Positions 28,650 to 48,228 of a stretch of DNA of 64,000 bases are shown here, one piece after another. Location: contig NZ_CP129964.1 of assembly GCF_030503675.1 (NCBI RefSeq), positions 992,001-1,056,000 of the forward strand, in the 5' to 3' direction. The DNA is from Lutimonas zeaxanthinifaciens (GTDB lineage: Bacteria; Bacteroidota; Bacteroidia; Flavobacteriales; Flavobacteriaceae). Each line of letters starts with the position of its first letter. The first letter of the stretch is position 1. The notes beneath the pieces were generated by a model. It saw only the letters and a program-made list of their open reading frames with translations, did no database searches and was not told the DNA's origin. The position numbers were made by a program, and so were the translations under genes.

Positions 28650-29693
28650 TTGCTGCTGGTGAATTCACTTAGAAAAATATTGTACCCCTTTTCCCTTCTA
28701 TATGGATTTATCATTAGTATCCGAAACACCTGTTTTGATTTAGGGATCCTTGAATCAAAATCTTTTGATTTTCCGGTAATCGTCGTGGGTAATTTGAATG
28801 TTGGGGGCACAGGAAAGTCACCGATGATTGAATATTTGATTCGTAGCTTCGAATCTGATTTCAAAACCGCGGTATTAAGCCGGGGATATGCCAGAAAAAC
28901 CAAAGGGTTTTTAATGGCTTCAGAAGGATGCACAGCAAGGGATATAGGTGATGAGCCCTATCAATTTTTTAGAAAATTTAAAAATTTGACGGTGGCAGTA
29001 GATGAAAAAAGAGTGAGAGGTATTGAAAAACTCAAACAGATCAAACCCGAACTTGAATTGATGCTTCTGGATGATGCCTTTCAACATCGCTATGTAAAAG
29101 CAGGTTTTAGTATTTTGTTAACTGCTTATGATGATTTGTATGTTGATGATCTATTGCTTCCCGCCGGGAATTTGAGAGAATCTGTATCAGGTGCAAGGCG
29201 CGCTAACGTGGTTGTTGTGACCAAATGTCCGGCGAGTCTGGATAAGAGAAAAAAGCGTGAAATTATTGCAAAGCTATCCCCATCTTTTAACAGGGACATT
29301 TTTTTTAGCACCGTCGATTATGATGATCTGATCATCAATGATAAAGGGGATAAAATAGATATGGGCGTTCTAAATGAGTATCAGGTATTACTGGTAACAG
29401 GAATTGCAAATCCAACAATACTTGAGGGCTTTCTCAGAGACAGACAAGTGAACTTTGAACCATTAAAATTTTCGGATCATCAGTTTTTTGGAGAAAAAGA
29501 GCACAAAGCAATTGAGAATAAATTTAATATGTTGTCCTCAGGCAAAAAGCTTATTCTTACCACTGAAAAAGATTATGTGAGAAGCTTTCAGAATGTTGAC
29601 CTGCCGGTTTATTATATTCCTATTAGGACGAGAATATTGTATGAGGATGAAAAATTTAATAATATAATTCAAAATTATGTACGACAAAATTAA
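28650..29693 (+). CDS. lpxK: tetraacyldisaccharide 4'-kinase
   Basis: Phosphorylates the 4' position of the lipid A precursor at the inner membrane. The 347-residue protein has an N-terminal hydrophobic helix (about 8-25, ILYPFSLLYGFIISI), the P-loop GNLNVGGTGKSP (about 48-58), YARKTKGF, the DDAFQHRYV motif typical of LpxK, and the C-terminal FSDHQFF and LTTEKDYVR elements. The start is uncertain: TTG at 28650 or GTG at 28659 (VNSLRKI); no ATG is available. It overlaps the next gene by 17 bases. Confidence 0.94.
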   Translation: MLLVNSLRKILYPFSLLYGFIISIRNTCFDLGILESKSFDFPVIVVGNLNVGGTGKSPMIEYLIRSFESDFKTAVLSRGYARKTKGFLMASEGCTARDIGDEPYQFFRKFKNLTVAVDEKRVRGIEKLKQIKPELELMLLDDAFQHRYVKAGFSILLTAYDDLYVDDLLLPAGNLRESVSGARRANVVVVTKCPASLDKRKKREIIAKLSPSFNRDIFFSTVDYDDLIINDKGDKIDMGVLNEYQVLLVTGIANPTILEGFLRDRQVNFEPLKFSDHQFFGEKEHKAIENKFNMLSSGKKLILTTEKDYVRSFQNVDLPVYYIPIRTRILYEDEKFNNIIQNYVRQN

Positions 29694-30501
29694 GGAGACC
29701 ACAAGGTTTCTGCTGGATATTGGAATTGATAAAGCTCAAGTGGGTATTGTTTTAGGTACTGGTTTGGGCGGAATAGTCAATATGATTAAAATTGAGAAAA
29801 AGATTCCATATCACGATATTCCTAACTTTCCTGTAAGTACAGTTTCCGGTCATTCAGGAACCTTGATCTATGGAGAATTATCCGGTAAAAAAGTCGTGGC
29901 CATGCAAGGTCGATTTCATTATTACGAGGGTTGGGAAATGTCTGAGGTAACTTTTCCCATTCGCGTGATGAAATTTCTTGGTATTGAAACGCTTATTGTA
30001 TCGAATGCCTGTGGAGGAGTCAATCCGGATTTTAAGGTTGGAGATGTAATGATCATTAGAGATCATATAAATATGATGCCAGAGCATCCCTTACGCGGAG
30101 AAAACGAGGATCGATTTGGGCCAAGGTTCGTCGATATGCATGAGCCTTACAGTTTGAAGATGATTGAACTGATGAAGAAAATAGCCGCGGAGAAAGGAAT
30201 TGAGGTTCAGGAAGGAGTTTACCTTGCCTTACAGGGGCCAACTTTTGAAACTCCTGCGGAATACAGAATGGTAAAATTAGTAGGAGCGGATGCGGTAGGT
30301 ATGAGTACGGTACCTGAAGTTATTGTAGCCAAACATATGAACATGGAATGTTTTGGACTCTCTGTTATAACCGATCTGGGAATAGAAGGAAAAGTTGAGG
30401 AGGTCTCACATGAGGCGGTTCAAATAGCCGCAAAATCTTCTGAAAAGAAAATTAGTACTTTGGTCGAAGACTTTATTGAAAAGTTAAAACTTAGAAAGTA
30501 A
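29677..30501 (+). CDS. punA: purine-nucleoside phosphorylase
   Basis: Phosphorolysis of inosine and guanosine to base plus ribose 1-phosphate. The 274-residue length and motifs fit the trimeric class: GLGGIVNMI phosphate loop, FPVSTVSGHSGTLIYGEL, MQGRFHYYEGW, SNACGGVNPDF, and EGVYLALQGPTFETPAEYRM with VGADAVGMSTVPEVIVA. It overlaps lpxK by 17 bases and is the last gene of the ftsK run. The first repeat-element hairpin begins two bases after its stop codon. Confidence 0.93.
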   Translation: MYDKIKETTRFLLDIGIDKAQVGIVLGTGLGGIVNMIKIEKKIPYHDIPNFPVSTVSGHSGTLIYGELSGKKVVAMQGRFHYYEGWEMSEVTFPIRVMKFLGIETLIVSNACGGVNPDFKVGDVMIIRDHINMMPEHPLRGENEDRFGPRFVDMHEPYSLKMIELMKKIAAEKGIEVQEGVYLALQGPTFETPAEYRMVKLVGADAVGMSTVPEVIVAKHMNMECFGLSVITDLGIEGKVEEVSHEAVQIAAKSSEKKISTLVEDFIEKLKLRK

Positions 30502-30502
30502 C

Positions 30503-30590
30503 AAAGCACCTCCGGATGTAGAAGTGCTTTAGCTTACTAACTCAAAATTAATCATAAATGAAGAACAAAATTTTGTGAGGAATCTTGTTG
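30503..30590 (-). ncRNA. putative small RNA, unit 1 of 3
   Basis: A minus-strand transcript of about 86 bases is predicted from the promoter at 30625-30594 to the hairpin at 30530-30503. The hairpin stem AAAGCACTTC/GAGGTGCTTT has ten pairs on the minus strand, one of them U-G; on the plus strand the same position is a C-A mismatch. The tract after the stem (GTTACTTTC) is a weak terminator tail. The core at 30555-30532 is identical in all units. An eight-codon frame MINFELVS with stop lies in it, too short to support as a gene. Confidence 0.45.
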
Positions 30591-30593
30591 ATT

Positions 30594-30625
30594 CAAATTT
30601 ATGAAATTAATGGTAAGTGAGCAAA
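30594..30625 (-). promoter_or_regulatory. minus-strand promoter of small-RNA unit 1
   Basis: On the minus strand TTTG (30625-30622), a 20-base spacer and TAAATTTG (30601-30594) match the Bacteroidota promoter fully. It points into unit 1 and away from lipA. The corresponding boxes in units 2 and 3 are poorer. Confidence 0.55.
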
Positions 30626-30751
30626 TATTTTGCTAGTTAAATTGATTTTAGGTTATTTTATTAATAAATACATAAAAACAATAAGGTTGATTTATGAGAT
30701 ATTTAAAAATATTCTAAATTCCGTTTTGGAATTATGAACTATTAAAATGAA

Positions 30752-30850
30752 AAAAGCACCTTTTATTCAAAGGTGCTTTTAGCTTACTAACTCAAAATTA
30801 ATCATAATGAAAACAAAATTAGTGGGGAATTTTGCTTCATTAGAAAATAT
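30752..30850 (-). ncRNA. putative small RNA, unit 2 of 3
   Basis: The hairpin at 30780-30752 is a perfect 12-bp stem (AAAAGCACCTTT/AAAGGTGCTTTT) with a 5-base loop. On the minus strand it is followed by further T residues (TTC ATTTT), making a good intrinsic terminator; on the plus strand it is followed by AGCTTACT. The core is at 30805-30782. The 5' end is uncertain; the upstream minus-strand stretch GGCACAG..CATATTTTC resembles the same region of unit 3 but has no clean TAnnTTTG. Confidence 0.45.
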
Positions 30851-31019
30851 GCAAATGCTGTGCCAAAACGGAAGGCAAATGTTAATATTTTATTAATTAT
30901 TGCTTTTTTTTACGATTTTAAGTGTTTTTGTGTCTTTTTTATCTAAAAAAATCGCACTTTTCTAAAGATTGAGGGTCGTTTTGCTGAAAGGTTTGAAGAA
31001 TCACATACGACCCTAACAG

Positions 31020-31110
31020 AAAAGCACCTCTTAAGGAGGCGCTTTTTGCTTACTAACTCAAAATTAATCATACGAAGTCAAAATTAATGGGGAATCTTGC
31101 TTCAAAAACT
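31020..31110 (-). ncRNA. putative small RNA, unit 3 of 3
   Basis: The hairpin at 31046-31020 reads AAAAGCGCCTC/GAGGTGCTTTT on the minus strand: 11 pairs with one G-U. On the plus strand that pair is an A-C mismatch. The core is at 31071-31048. The upstream block GAAGCAAGATTCCCCA is nearly the same as in unit 2 (GAAGCAAAATTCCCCA). The minus strand upstream has TTTTTG..GTTTTTG elements that only loosely fit a promoter. This unit lies about 65-150 bases beyond the lipA stop, so it could also be the lipA 3' end. Confidence 0.4.
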
Positions 31111-31173
31111 ATATATCAAAATCTGTACCAAAAAACAGATATATAAAGTTAATCATATGTTAATTTCAAAAAT

Positions 31174-32052
31174 TTAAATCAAATGCTTTTCGGCCCTGTA
31201 CGAAGAGCGCACCAAAGCTCCACTTTCAACATATTTGAAGCCAAGGTCCAGGCCGAATTTTTTATATTTTTCAAATTGTTCCGGTTTGATGAATTCATGT
31301 ACCGGAAGATGTTGTTTACTCGGTTGAAGGTATTGACCTATGGTGACAATGTCTACTTTTGCCTTATAAAGGTCATTTAGGGTCTCTATCACCTCTTCTT
31401 CTTTTTCACCAAGTCCGAGCATAATTCCCGATTTTGTTCTTTTTTGACCGGAATCCTTTATATATTCAAGAACCTCCAGGCTTCTGTCATACTGAGCCTG
31501 TATTCTTACCTCTCTAGTAAGGCGCCTTACTGTTTCCAGGTTATGAGAAATAACCTCCGGGGCGACCTCAACAATTCGATCAATATTGGTTTTTATTCCT
31601 CTAAAGTCAGGAATCAGTGTCTCGAGGGTGGTAGAGGGATTGGTCCTGCGGATCGCGTCAACCGTTTCTGCCCAGATAATTGAACCTCCATCCTTTAAGT
31701 CATCCCTGTCAACTGATGTAATTACAGCATGTTTGATTTTCATTAAATGAATGGAACGGGCAACTTTTTCGGGTTCATCCCATTCAACACTCTCGGGTTT
31801 CCCAGTTTTTACTCCGCAGAAACCACAAGATCGGGTACAGATATTTCCAAGAATCATAAAAGTAGCTGTACCTTCGCCCCAGCATTCACCCATATTGGGA
31901 CAACTACCACTGGTGCAAATCGTATTGAGCTTGTATTTATCCACCAAGCCCCTAAGATCGGTATACTTTTTACCCACCGGTAATTTCACTCTTAACCATT
32001 CTGGTTTTTTAGTTCTTGGGACGATCACAGATTTATCTGACATACTGTTCAT
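31174..32052 (-). CDS. lipA: lipoyl synthase
   Basis: Radical-SAM enzyme inserting two sulfurs into protein-bound octanoyl groups to make lipoate. The 292-residue protein has both iron-sulfur motifs: auxiliary cluster Cys46-x4-Cys51-x5-Cys57 ([12 protein letters not shown]) and radical-SAM cluster Cys72-x3-Cys76-x2-Cys79 (CTRSCGFC), plus the C-terminal SSYRAEKHL whose Arg-Ser-Ser-Tyr segment provides the unusual Ser ligand. Start is ATG at 32052 or the ATG three codons later; both keep all motifs. The lipoate-using E3 subunit is encoded 11 kb away. Confidence 0.97.
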
Positions 32053-45653: not shown

Positions 45654-48125
45654 CTATCCGCCAAATTCTCCTCCTTCATCACCACCCATTCCGTTACGCT
45701 GTCTCTGACGTTGCTTTTTCTGATTGAAGCGATAGGTAAACGATAGTCTGAATTGCCGTTGCCTCCATTGGAATTCGCTCTTTTGTTCAAAGGAATCTGT
45801 AAGGGTGTTTGAAACGCGCTTTCTTGAATTAAACATATCATCCACGTTGAAAACCAGCGTGCCATTTCCTTTTAAAATATCCTTGCTGAATGCCATATTC
45901 GCCATAAACATCCCATCTGTTTTTGTTTGAGCGTTCTGTCTTGGCCCTCGGTACATGAGTGTTGTCTGCCAGTCTATTTCGGCAGGTAATGTGATTTTGG
46001 AACTTGCTCTTGTAAACCAGCTGTTAAAATTGGATCCAAAGTCAACCCCATCGTATTCTCCGTCAAGGGTTGAGTTATAGAAATTAAAGCTCAGGTTGAA
46101 CCTCCAGTTTTTCTTTGGGGTATAATTGGCTGAAAATTCAGTTCCATAACGATCTTCAGTGCTCAGGTTTATAGGCGTTCTTCTTATAATTGGAATCCCG
46201 TCCTCAGTAGTTTCTCCAGTGTCCTGGCTTATAAATTGAAAAACATCCGTAGCACGGCTGTAATAAACAGATGTGTTAAAAGTAACTTTTTGCCATCTTT
46301 TGAAATACCCCAGGTCCACCCCGTGAGAAATAGAGGGGTCAAGATCGGGATTTCCTTGAAATATGGTTGTTTGACTTGATTGTGAAGGGAATGGATTGAT
46401 AAACCAGGATCTTGGTCTCCTGATCCTGCTGTTATAGCCAAGTGTCAGATTCTCACTCTCAGTAAATTCATAAACCAGGTTTACCGTTGGAAAAAAGTTC
46501 ACATAATTTTTGGTGTTGACCGAGTCAATATTTTTTCCGGTTGATCGGATATCTATATCTGTTCCCTCAACCCTTAATCCTACCAAAGCTGAAAATTTTC
46601 CGAATTTGTTTCCGTACTGCCCGTAAATGGCCGAAATCATTTCCTCATATTCAAAAAAGTTGGTAAGGCTGTCATTCACAATAAAATCGCCATTTTCATC
46701 CTCGTCATAAAACCTGTAATCTGTATCTCGGTCTTCTGCATTGATTCGAACTCCCAGTTCAACCTGCTGATTCTCACCAATAGGCAGGACATAGTCACTT
46801 TGAAGGAGAAAGCGTTTTTGTACCTCATCCGAAAAAATCGTTTGCGAGGGCAGATCCAATTGTTCCGGATAAAGTTCCTGGTTAGTGATCAGGCTGTTTT
46901 CGGTTTGACTATTGTCCTGATATTGCAGGTCGAGATCAATCTGGTGCCCTTCATTTTTGAATTTATGCAAAAAATTCAGGTCATACTGAAAAACGTTTCC
47001 ATCAGACTCTTGATTTTCATTTCGGAAGGTGGTATTGGCTAAAGCATTAACATCATTATAGGCATCAGTGAAGTTTTCAGAGCTATTGGCTCTTTTGGAA
47101 TCCCGGTACAAAAAACTTCCCGTAAGAGAGGTGTTTTTCGTGAAGTAATATTCAAGGCCAATATTGGCATTTAAGTTTTTTCTCGACCTGTTATAGTCTA
47201 TCTTTTGATCTGTATATGGATAGGTGGCATTTGGAGAGAAATAATTCGTCTCATAACTCGCATTACCCGGTGCTTCTCTGTCTGAATAGCCAATATTAGT
47301 AAAGAAATTTACTTTTTCTAATCGGTAATTCAAACTGGCAGATCCACCATAGTATTTTGGTTCACCAAGATTTAAAGTACCGACTCCGTTAAAACCTGTT
47401 GCCTTGTCTCTTCTTAATATGATATTTAAAATTCCCGCGGTACCCTCAGCATCATATCTTGCTGAAGGACTCGTTATAACCTCTACTTTTGCAATGGCAT
47501 CTGCAGGGAATTGGCGCAGAGCTTCAGTATCATTTAATCCTATCAATCCACTTGGTTTACCATCAATAAGTATTCTGACATTTTCATTTCCTCTAAGGCT
47601 CACTACCCCCTCGGCATCGACGGTTACTGAAGGGACATTGTCAAGTACATCACTTGCAGTTCCACCCTTTACGGTCATATCCTTACCCACATTATAGATC
47701 TTTTTATCGAGTCTGACTTCCATGGTGCTTTTTTCTGCAATAACTTCAACCTCCTCCAAAGCTTCGGAATCTTCCTCAAGAAAAATTTCCCCGAGATCGA
47801 GATTTTTGTTTAGTTCAATATTCTCAAGGGTTATGGTTTTAAATGACAGAAATTCAAAGCTGATATTGTATCTGCCCTTTGGGGCTTCAACGAGGAAATT
47901 CCCCTTGTCATCGGTCATTCCGCCGAAGATCTTAGGCCCCCTTAAGGGTTTTACAATAACCGTGGTAAACTCCAAAGGGATTTTTTCATTCTTCTCATAA
48001 ACCTGACCAACAATTTCAAACATTTCACGTTGCTGTCTCCCGTCTCCCGGAGGTCTTTTACGCTCCTGGCTCGATAAGTGTGCCGTTATAAAAAAAAATA
48101 GGATAAAAATTAAGGGAAGTTTCAT
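45654..48125 (-). CDS. outer-membrane receptor-like protein, OMP_b-brl_3 family (first paralog)
   Basis: An 823-residue TonB-dependent-receptor-like barrel. The order is signal peptide (1-19, FILFFFITAHLSS), CarboxypepD_reg-like domain (about 37-110, IVGQVYEKNEKIPLEFTTV), plug domain (about 125-225, with GGTASDVLDNVPSVTVDAEG and VRILIDGKPSG) and a barrel (about 235-800) ending LSFTYRFNQ. An unusual Gln/Arg-rich then Gly/Glu-rich tail follows the last strand. It lacks a nearby SusD, so it is not a SusC/D pair; substrate unknown. A paralog lies 370 bases upstream. Confidence 0.85.
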   Translation of the reverse strand: MKLPLIFILFFFITAHLSSQERKRPPGDGRQQREMFEIVGQVYEKNEKIPLEFTTVIVKPLRGPKIFGGMTDDKGNFLVEAPKGRYNISFEFLSFKTITLENIELNKNLDLGEIFLEEDSEALEEVEVIAEKSTMEVRLDKKIYNVGKDMTVKGGTASDVLDNVPSVTVDAEGVVSLRGNENVRILIDGKPSGLIGLNDTEALRQFPADAIAKVEVITSPSARYDAEGTAGILNIILRRDKATGFNGVGTLNLGEPKYYGGSASLNYRLEKVNFFTNIGYSDREAPGNASYETNYFSPNATYPYTDQKIDYNRSRKNLNANIGLEYYFTKNTSLTGSFLYRDSKRANSSENFTDAYNDVNALANTTFRNENQESDGNVFQYDLNFLHKFKNEGHQIDLDLQYQDNSQTENSLITNQELYPEQLDLPSQTIFSDEVQKRFLLQSDYVLPIGENQQVELGVRINAEDRDTDYRFYDEDENGDFIVNDSLTNFFEYEEMISAIYGQYGNKFGKFSALVGLRVEGTDIDIRSTGKNIDSVNTKNYVNFFPTVNLVYEFTESENLTLGYNSRIRRPRSWFINPFPSQSSQTTIFQGNPDLDPSISHGVDLGYFKRWQKVTFNTSVYYSRATDVFQFISQDTGETTEDGIPIIRRTPINLSTEDRYGTEFSANYTPKKNWRFNLSFNFYNSTLDGEYDGVDFGSNFNSWFTRASSKITLPAEIDWQTTLMYRGPRQNAQTKTDGMFMANMAFSKDILKGNGTLVFNVDDMFNSRKRVSNTLTDSFEQKSEFQWRQRQFRLSFTYRFNQKKQRQRQRNGMGGDEGGEFGG

Positions 48126-48228
48126 TTAGTCGTTTCAATATGAATCTTTTTATTGGACATGCAATATAGATTTTAGTTTAATTCAAGATCTGTTAATATT
48201 ATGTTAATTTAAAATACTCATATATTTA

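Follow-up and report, generated by a model that had tools for sequence, protein, structure and literature searches.

The window analysed here is a 64,000-nucleotide stretch of the Lutimonas zeaxanthinifaciens genome (Flavobacteriaceae; contig NZ_CP129964.1).

A three-unit array between two convergent genes

A 672-base gap between two convergent genes holds three related units. On one side lies a purine nucleoside phosphorylase gene (29677..30501, plus strand; Pfam PNP_UDP_1), and on the other a gene on the minus strand (31174..32052, 3′ end at 31174; Pfam Radical_SAM), which we take from its sequence, read by eye, to be lipA (lipoyl synthase). The units have 25 identical bases in common, GCTTACTAACTCAAAATTAATCATA, at 30532-30556, 30782-30806 and 31048-31072, which bears out the three-unit array of the preliminary description. 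The 24-base core given there at 30532-30555 is real but sits one base away, at 30533-30556. Each unit also has the hairpin and the looser block, GGGGAATTTTG, that had been described. In the host genome, a single contig of 3.53 Mb, the 24-mer core with up to three mismatches matches the three units alone, with no match at any susC start and none for the reversed control. The array is far beyond chance. What had been noted on the reading frames holds: on the plus strand, unit 1 reads MKNKIL followed by a stop, unit 3 has ACG where ATG is expected, and unit 2 is open for 29 codons but departs from the xGIL pattern.

The stretch is matched in 20 of 22 Lutimonas genomes, the host counted, with up to six BLAST matches in one relative (G014). 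Several Lutimonas genomes keep the three-unit array at the same place. Other relatives carry further copies between other genes, with neighbours that we presume, by eye from 17 loci viewed, to be folA/sppA-like, clpX/dnaG-like or rodA/rpsT-like. From the loci at hand we collected 53 distinct units and aligned the 51 complete ones; drawn from related genomes, these are not independent of each other. Rfam 15 gives no match at the gathering score in the window and five other stretches, and below threshold, within 30300-31400, it gives GcvB (E 0.19), BTnc231 (E 0.33 and 0.8) and SNORD109A (E 0.93). No description of this RNA was found in the literature covered, a scope that excludes preprints and most subscription papers.

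Anatomy, strand and folding of the units

Read on the minus strand, each unit consists of a promoter, a 5′ hairpin with a C-rich loop, the nearly invariant core and an intrinsic terminator. The predicted small RNA of unit 1 (about 90 nt, 30500..30589, minus strand) comprises the 5′ hairpin at 30564-30589, the core at 30532-30556 and the terminator at 30500-30530. For unit 2, the best partner of the MKTK susC start discussed below, the predicted RNA (about 89 nt, 30750..30838, minus strand) has its CCCC-loop hairpin at 30809-30838, core at 30782-30806 and terminator at 30750-30780. The predicted RNA of unit 3 (about 86 nt, 31018..31103, minus strand) has the 5′ hairpin at 31074-31103, the core at 31048-31072 and a terminator hairpin at 31018-31047. 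The stem of the 5′ hairpin is CAAAATT/AATTTTG, and the loop in unit 2 is CCCCACT.

In the alignment, three A-U pairs of this stem have turned to G-U on the minus strand in 21 cells (7, 9 and 5). These changes are one-sided: on the plus strand they would be A-C mismatches, and the reverse type, A-C on the minus strand, is absent among the unpaired cells. Only the minus strand tolerates the G-U pairs, which supports it as the strand of the RNA. The stem is paired in 97% of cells, compared to 32-61% when the partner is slid. The gain over shuffled 3′ letters is small (97.0 versus 96.4%), and covariation is modest, with a score of 0.114 versus 0.099 that was reached by 3 of 500 shuffles. Folding energy is lower on the minus (small-RNA) strand in 45 of 51 units. 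The terminator was left out of the consensus fold because its columns align poorly. Its T runs hold 6.0 T per 9 nt on the small-RNA strand versus 4.8 on the other, the direction seen in 44 of 51 units; as this is only somewhat richer, the hairpins may serve the other strand too. The G-U pairs and terminators, along with the promoter motifs, support the minus-strand small RNAs that had been proposed, and on these sequence features we predict with high confidence that the units are small-RNA genes.

Promoter motifs and an upstream direct repeat

The motifs upstream of the units, all on the minus strand, add sigma-54 to what the preliminary description contained. Unit 2 is preceded by a sigma-54 promoter motif, TTGGCACAGCATTTGC (30851..30866), and above it by a TTAAT-N6-TTAAC box (30881..30896) with one mismatch to TTAAC-N6-TTAAC. 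Unit 3 has a sigma-54-like -24/-12 element, TTGGTACAGATTTTGA (31116..31131; GG-N10-GA, deviant at -12), and above it a TTAAC-N6-TTAAC box (31148..31163). The motif before unit 1 is of the housekeeping type, TTTG-N20-TAAATTTG (30594..30625), after the TAnnTTTG consensus reported for flavobacteria (PMC9723704).

The same arrangement recurs among the 51 aligned units. TGGYAY-N5-WTG (-24/-12) is found 59-61 nt before the core in 33 of them, 26 in strict form, compared to 0.04% of dinucleotide shuffles and 0.00% for the strict form. The housekeeping motif TTG-N19-22-TAnnTTNS occurs in eight, all first units (shuffles 1.5%). Ten units satisfied neither rule. By eye, two of these (in L053 and L077) have a sigma-54 site at a shifted distance, two (units 3 of L042 and L043) have GG-N10-GC with an altered -24 box, two (the unit-1 copies of L042 and L043) have a near-miss housekeeping box, and four have no clear promoter. 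A TTAAC-N6-TTAAC direct repeat with at most one mismatch stands above the sigma-54 site in 35 of 37 sigma-54-type units, the 37 being defined by a slightly wider motif rule than the 33 above; 34 of the 35 boxes begin 31-33 nt before TGG (mononucleotide shuffles 1.3%). The exact repeat occurs seven times in 864 kb of host sequence, always outside ORFs of at least 80 aa. Other spacings (2-13) occur 0-8 times, so the enrichment is modest. In the window, one exact box (48192-48207, minus strand) precedes by 82 nt a TonB-dependent receptor-like ORF with its start near 48125.

The RpoN DNA-binding domain (PF04552) is encoded in 21 of 22 Lutimonas genomes, the host included. Strict sigma-54 sites (TTGGCAY-N5-TTGC) are rare in the host genome, where a scan returns six matches versus two for reversed controls. 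Besides that of unit 2, four of the other five lie inside same-strand open frames, one of them just before its frame's ATG, and the fifth is 30 nt before a helicase-like ORF. In F. psychrophilum, the usual -24/-12 elements are reported on chaperone, envelope and gliding genes and on a candidate small RNA, Rfp36 (PMC9723704). Judged by motif, control by sigma-54 is highly likely for unit 2 and likely for unit 3.

Predicted pairing with a susC translation start

TIGR04056 gives 30 matches in the host genome, of which five susC genes are over the cut-off. One of the five begins MKTKLSGILTLLLAF (MKTKLSGIL) and is the upstream gene of a susCD pair (host position 909874, minus strand). It lies at 0.91 Mb, about 113 kb from the array at 1.02 Mb. 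The predicted duplex of unit 2 with this start has an energy of -41.9 kcal/mol, a z of -7.8 against shuffles (500 each; shuffled targets -17.7, sd 3.1; shuffled small RNA -18.1, sd 3.1). Unit 1 reaches -32.5 (z about -5) and unit 3 -31.6 (z -4.0), with at least one of 500 shuffled small RNAs below the latter. The unit 2 duplex spans about -29 to +34 around the AUG, a position in which it would hide the ribosome site, and includes GUGG/CCAC and the AUGAAAAC pairing.

As background we used 1,244 candidate starts from 686 ORFs in the window and 40 stretches of 20 kb, with susC left out. By predicted duplex energy, susC ranks first for unit 2 (-41.9 versus -31.2 kcal/mol for the best background start) and for unit 1 (-35.6 versus -34.2, with a slightly longer RNA body than for the -32.5 above). 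Unit 3 is not exceptional: two of the 1,244 starts do as well as susC or better. Net of folding, susC scores -28.1 for unit 2 and -22.1 for unit 1, ahead of -19.4 and -19.0 for the respective runners-up; for unit 3 it scores -16.2, and one start is better (-17.0). The complementarity to a susC translation start put forward in the preliminary description is thus supported for one conserved susC. Its extension to many susC starts is not supported: of the five host genes over the cut-off, strong pairing is confined to the MKTKLSGIL gene, and another, L006, lies on the margin of the background, at -31.6 with unit 2 versus -31.2. On the complementarity itself, it is highly probable that unit 2 pairs directly with the MKTK susC start.

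Elsewhere in the genus and here, an MKTK susC from the same genome was available for 33 of the 51 units and not for the other 18. In 25 of those 33 it outscores every one of 622 background starts (15 of 21 with the sigma-54 motif and 10 of 12 others), the background for all units being every second of the 1,244 host starts. Two traits of a trans-acting small RNA are present, an intrinsic terminator and no adjoining target: by eye, susC neighbours the unit in none of the 17 loci viewed. A role of the core as a marker of many gene leaders was rejected: TAACTCAAA-N5-25-ATG gives 23 matches in the host genome, three of them the units themselves, versus 27 in the reversed control, and is thus not enriched. 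The host genome also has a small lipoprotein ORF (MKLIKGIF...; L244:7723-8054, host near 623,723) with the leader TTAACTTAAAATTAAC 20 nt before its ATG.

On the susC side of the pair, 30 susC loci of the genus yielded 17 MKTK genes, which share their leader and opening codons almost letter for letter. Where the amino acid is identical, the codon is too in 96% of cases in codons 2-9, 82% in codons 10-18 and 54% in codons 19-248, for gene pairs with at most 93% protein identity and as a comparison within susC rather than with the starts of other genes. By this measure the susC start is constrained at the RNA level. An exact TTAAC-N6-TTAAC lies 102-104 nt before the ATG in 11 of the 17 (best match within 200 nt upstream), and three more have a one-mismatch box at 92-105 nt. 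The best one-mismatch site in L080 and L102 is at 50-51 nt, and L082 has two mismatches. Right after the small-RNA site, all 17 genes also have ACGC-N8-GCGT (codons 10-15), with short-hairpin potential, which may be a further RNA element. The susCD pair in L279 (9192-15726) adjoins a POTRA-type outer-membrane protein and a cluster that we take, by eye, to be rpsL/rpsG-like; the pair resembles a core importer more than a polysaccharide utilisation locus.

Relatives in other genera

Among 397 family genomes, a covariance-model search matched eight: three Lutimonas, G166, G349, G258, G288 and G045. Weak members were possibly missed, since 10 candidates per genome were scored. The G045 match was judged false: the promoter motif is missing, and the match overlaps a receptor-like ORF at that ORF's end. 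The pattern TTTGTTTTCATT-N3-15-TTGAGTTA matched 11 of the 397 genomes, including two in which real gene starts are read antisense (G232 and G129) and one that looks unrelated (G095). Relatives adjoin lipA in genera g146, g4, g47 and g119. We located lipA in 98 of 100 family genomes, and among the 40 best-scoring non-Lutimonas stretches downstream of it the sigma-54-like motif is present in two (G023 and G024), one more member in g4 and one very divergent in g3. With two of 40, the RNA is either limited to few genera or too diverged elsewhere to be seen. The divergent RNA downstream of lipA in G023 (L197 / L284) has the promoter motif TTGGCACGATACTTGT and the stretch GGGGGTGG, and its antisense reads TTAACCAAACTTAATTTTATGAAATG, resembling a different gene start.

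All lipA-side relatives keep the sigma-54-like site (with GA for GC at -12 in g4) and the terminator, and the TTAAC box is readable by eye in g146, g4 and g47. The small RNAs of g4, g47, g119 and g146 complement ATGAAAACAAA(G) and letters upstream of it. We compared pairing across genera with one or two susC starts per genus. In g4, all three small RNAs pair best with the g4 susC, sharing 18, 22 and 22 perfect bases with it and 12-13 with Lutimonas susC; before the ATG, the g4 gene has ACAA (TTACAA) and the Lutimonas gene TATA. Both partners thus changed together in g4, in this one genus and not in all. For the g47 small RNA, perfect bases number 19 with a g47 susC and 22 with Lutimonas susC; the latter also gives the best energy. 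In g47, g119 and g146 the cognate pair is not the best, and susC starts of other genera pair better.

Discussion

The array is best explained, with good probability, as a set of small RNAs under sigma-54 or housekeeping promoters that repress the MKTKLSGIL susC. From the anatomy and conservation of the units, their promoter motifs, the presence of rpoN, the complementarity beyond background and the RNA-level constraint on the target, we infer transcription, the use of sigma-54, duplex formation in the cell, repression and an inducing signal. The three paralogous, tandem units would be trans-acting small-RNA genes on the minus strand. RNA polymerase with sigma-54 would transcribe units 2 and 3, probably controlled by a regulator that binds TTAAC-N6-TTAAC, and the housekeeping sigma factor would transcribe unit 1. 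The RNAs of ~90 nt, chiefly that of unit 2, would form a duplex with the MKTKLSGIL start over most of their first 58 nt and block ribosome access, such that less of that outer-membrane importer is made. That the unit RNAs repress MKTK susC we consider probable. The interpretation in the preliminary description is partly supported, being largely right for one conserved susC.

The units could also be real small RNAs whose main target lies elsewhere and is reached through the invariant core, e.g. a small lipoprotein mRNA or a protein. The likeness to susC would then be secondary, or a trace of descent from a susC start copied in antisense. We consider this unlikely, and several observations speak for it. 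The core is the most conserved part of the units, yet alone it pairs weakly with susC (-11.8 versus -17.7 kcal/mol for the best background start), so that susC leaves the strongest conservation unexplained. The L244 lipoprotein start has 17 contiguous pairs to the core, G-U included, and net of folding it is first or second of the 1,244 background starts for every unit (-19.0, -17.4 and -17.0). In addition, a susC other than the cognate one pairs better in three of five genera. On the other side, susC stands above all sampled starts for units 1 and 2, the complementarity is held in other genera with co-change in g4, and by core energy alone L244 is only fifth of 1,308. Judged by this pairing, the core may serve a second target, for which the L244 start is a candidate.

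The remaining alternatives do without a regulatory RNA of this kind. On the plus strand the units look like MKTK starts whose frames are broken, and copies are scattered over intergenic gaps in relatives, as would be expected of functionless relics of duplicated susC gene starts or of a repeat family. This origin, which the preliminary description had offered as its alternative, is very unlikely because promoters, terminators and pairing are conserved: the promoter motif has a fixed spacing, the stem is kept through G-U changes, the lipA-side site is the same in several genera, and pairing is maintained over distance. It is still less plausible that the hairpins are only terminators or 3′ UTR elements of the two convergent genes. 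The array does fill the convergent gap with T-run hairpins after both genes, and the T runs are only somewhat richer on the small-RNA strand (6.0 versus 4.8), but each of the three units is complete and has its own promoter motif, and the unit also occurs at other intergenic sites in relatives. A minus-strand octapeptide, MINFELVS, is the most improbable of these readings. The core ATG opens exactly MINFELVS-stop in 28 of 51 units, and 36 of 51 have an ATG and a stop within 14 codons. In contrast, nine of 51 have no ATG, the wobble bases are as fixed as the rest, and the g4, g47 and g119 members are without the frame, which is probably a by-product of an invariant RNA.

Small RNAs acting on susC, under sigma-54 or on outer-membrane proteins are known from other systems. 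DonS of Bacteroides fragilis is antisense to a susC-like gene, like the RNAs proposed here, and adjoins it, according to the preliminary description. The array is about 113 kb from its susC (1.02 versus 0.91 Mb), and a cis-antisense arrangement of the DonS type was therefore set aside. The Qrr RNAs of Vibrio are siblings, each about 100 nt long, that have intrinsic terminators and are transcribed from sigma-54 promoters, much as predicted for the array; they belong to another phylum and have other targets. MicA and RybB of E. coli depend on sigma-E and shut off outer-membrane protein starts. The likeness would lie in a stress-type sigma factor driving small RNAs against such starts; the sigma factor differs, and no sequence relation is claimed. 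By analogy, a circuit of this type might run on sigma-54 here, with envelope stress inducing the sibling small RNAs to turn off the rpsL-linked susCD, and with a response regulator that binds TTAAC-N6-TTAAC acting with sigma-54. We regard this extension as tentative and rather doubtful. Since susC carries the same TTAAC box, one regulator would touch both the small RNA and its target, as in a feed-forward loop. The sigma-54 regulon of F. psychrophilum covers protein quality control, envelope stress and gliding (PMC9723704). The same source lists Rfp36 as a putative regulatory RNA with a sigma-54 promoter, which by description is a similar flavobacterial candidate (PMC9723704).

The closest known system is the FopS family, with GibS, reported in 2025 to control susC homologues post-transcriptionally in gut Bacteroides (PMC11697453). 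In Bacteroides thetaiotaomicron, FopS RNAs bind near the start codon of susC-homologue mRNAs and repress their translation; the family has 14 members with canonical sigma-ABfr promoters (PMC11697453). Both are multicopy paralogous small RNAs directed at susC-type starts, in our case in silico only. The mechanism proposed for the array would be the same, on a comparison of descriptions rather than sequences. The array differs from what is described for FopS in lineage (Flavobacteriaceae rather than Bacteroides), in promoters (sigma-54 motifs at units 2 and 3 and in 33 of 51 units, rather than sigma-ABfr) and in number (three in tandem, plus dispersed copies in relatives, rather than 14).

SusCD importers are the main nutrient gates of Bacteroidota. 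A second susC-repressing small-RNA system, in marine Flavobacteriaceae, under sigma-54 instead of the housekeeping factor and directed at a conserved importer, would suggest a strategy of broader reach in the phylum that uses different promoters. If the envelope-stress circuit outlined above is real, the SusC signal-peptide coding region (MKTKxxGILTLLLA) would owe its conservation in part to RNA targeting and not to the protein. The array offers a concrete target site open to testing and may explain why this SusC type is so unusually conserved in its first codons.
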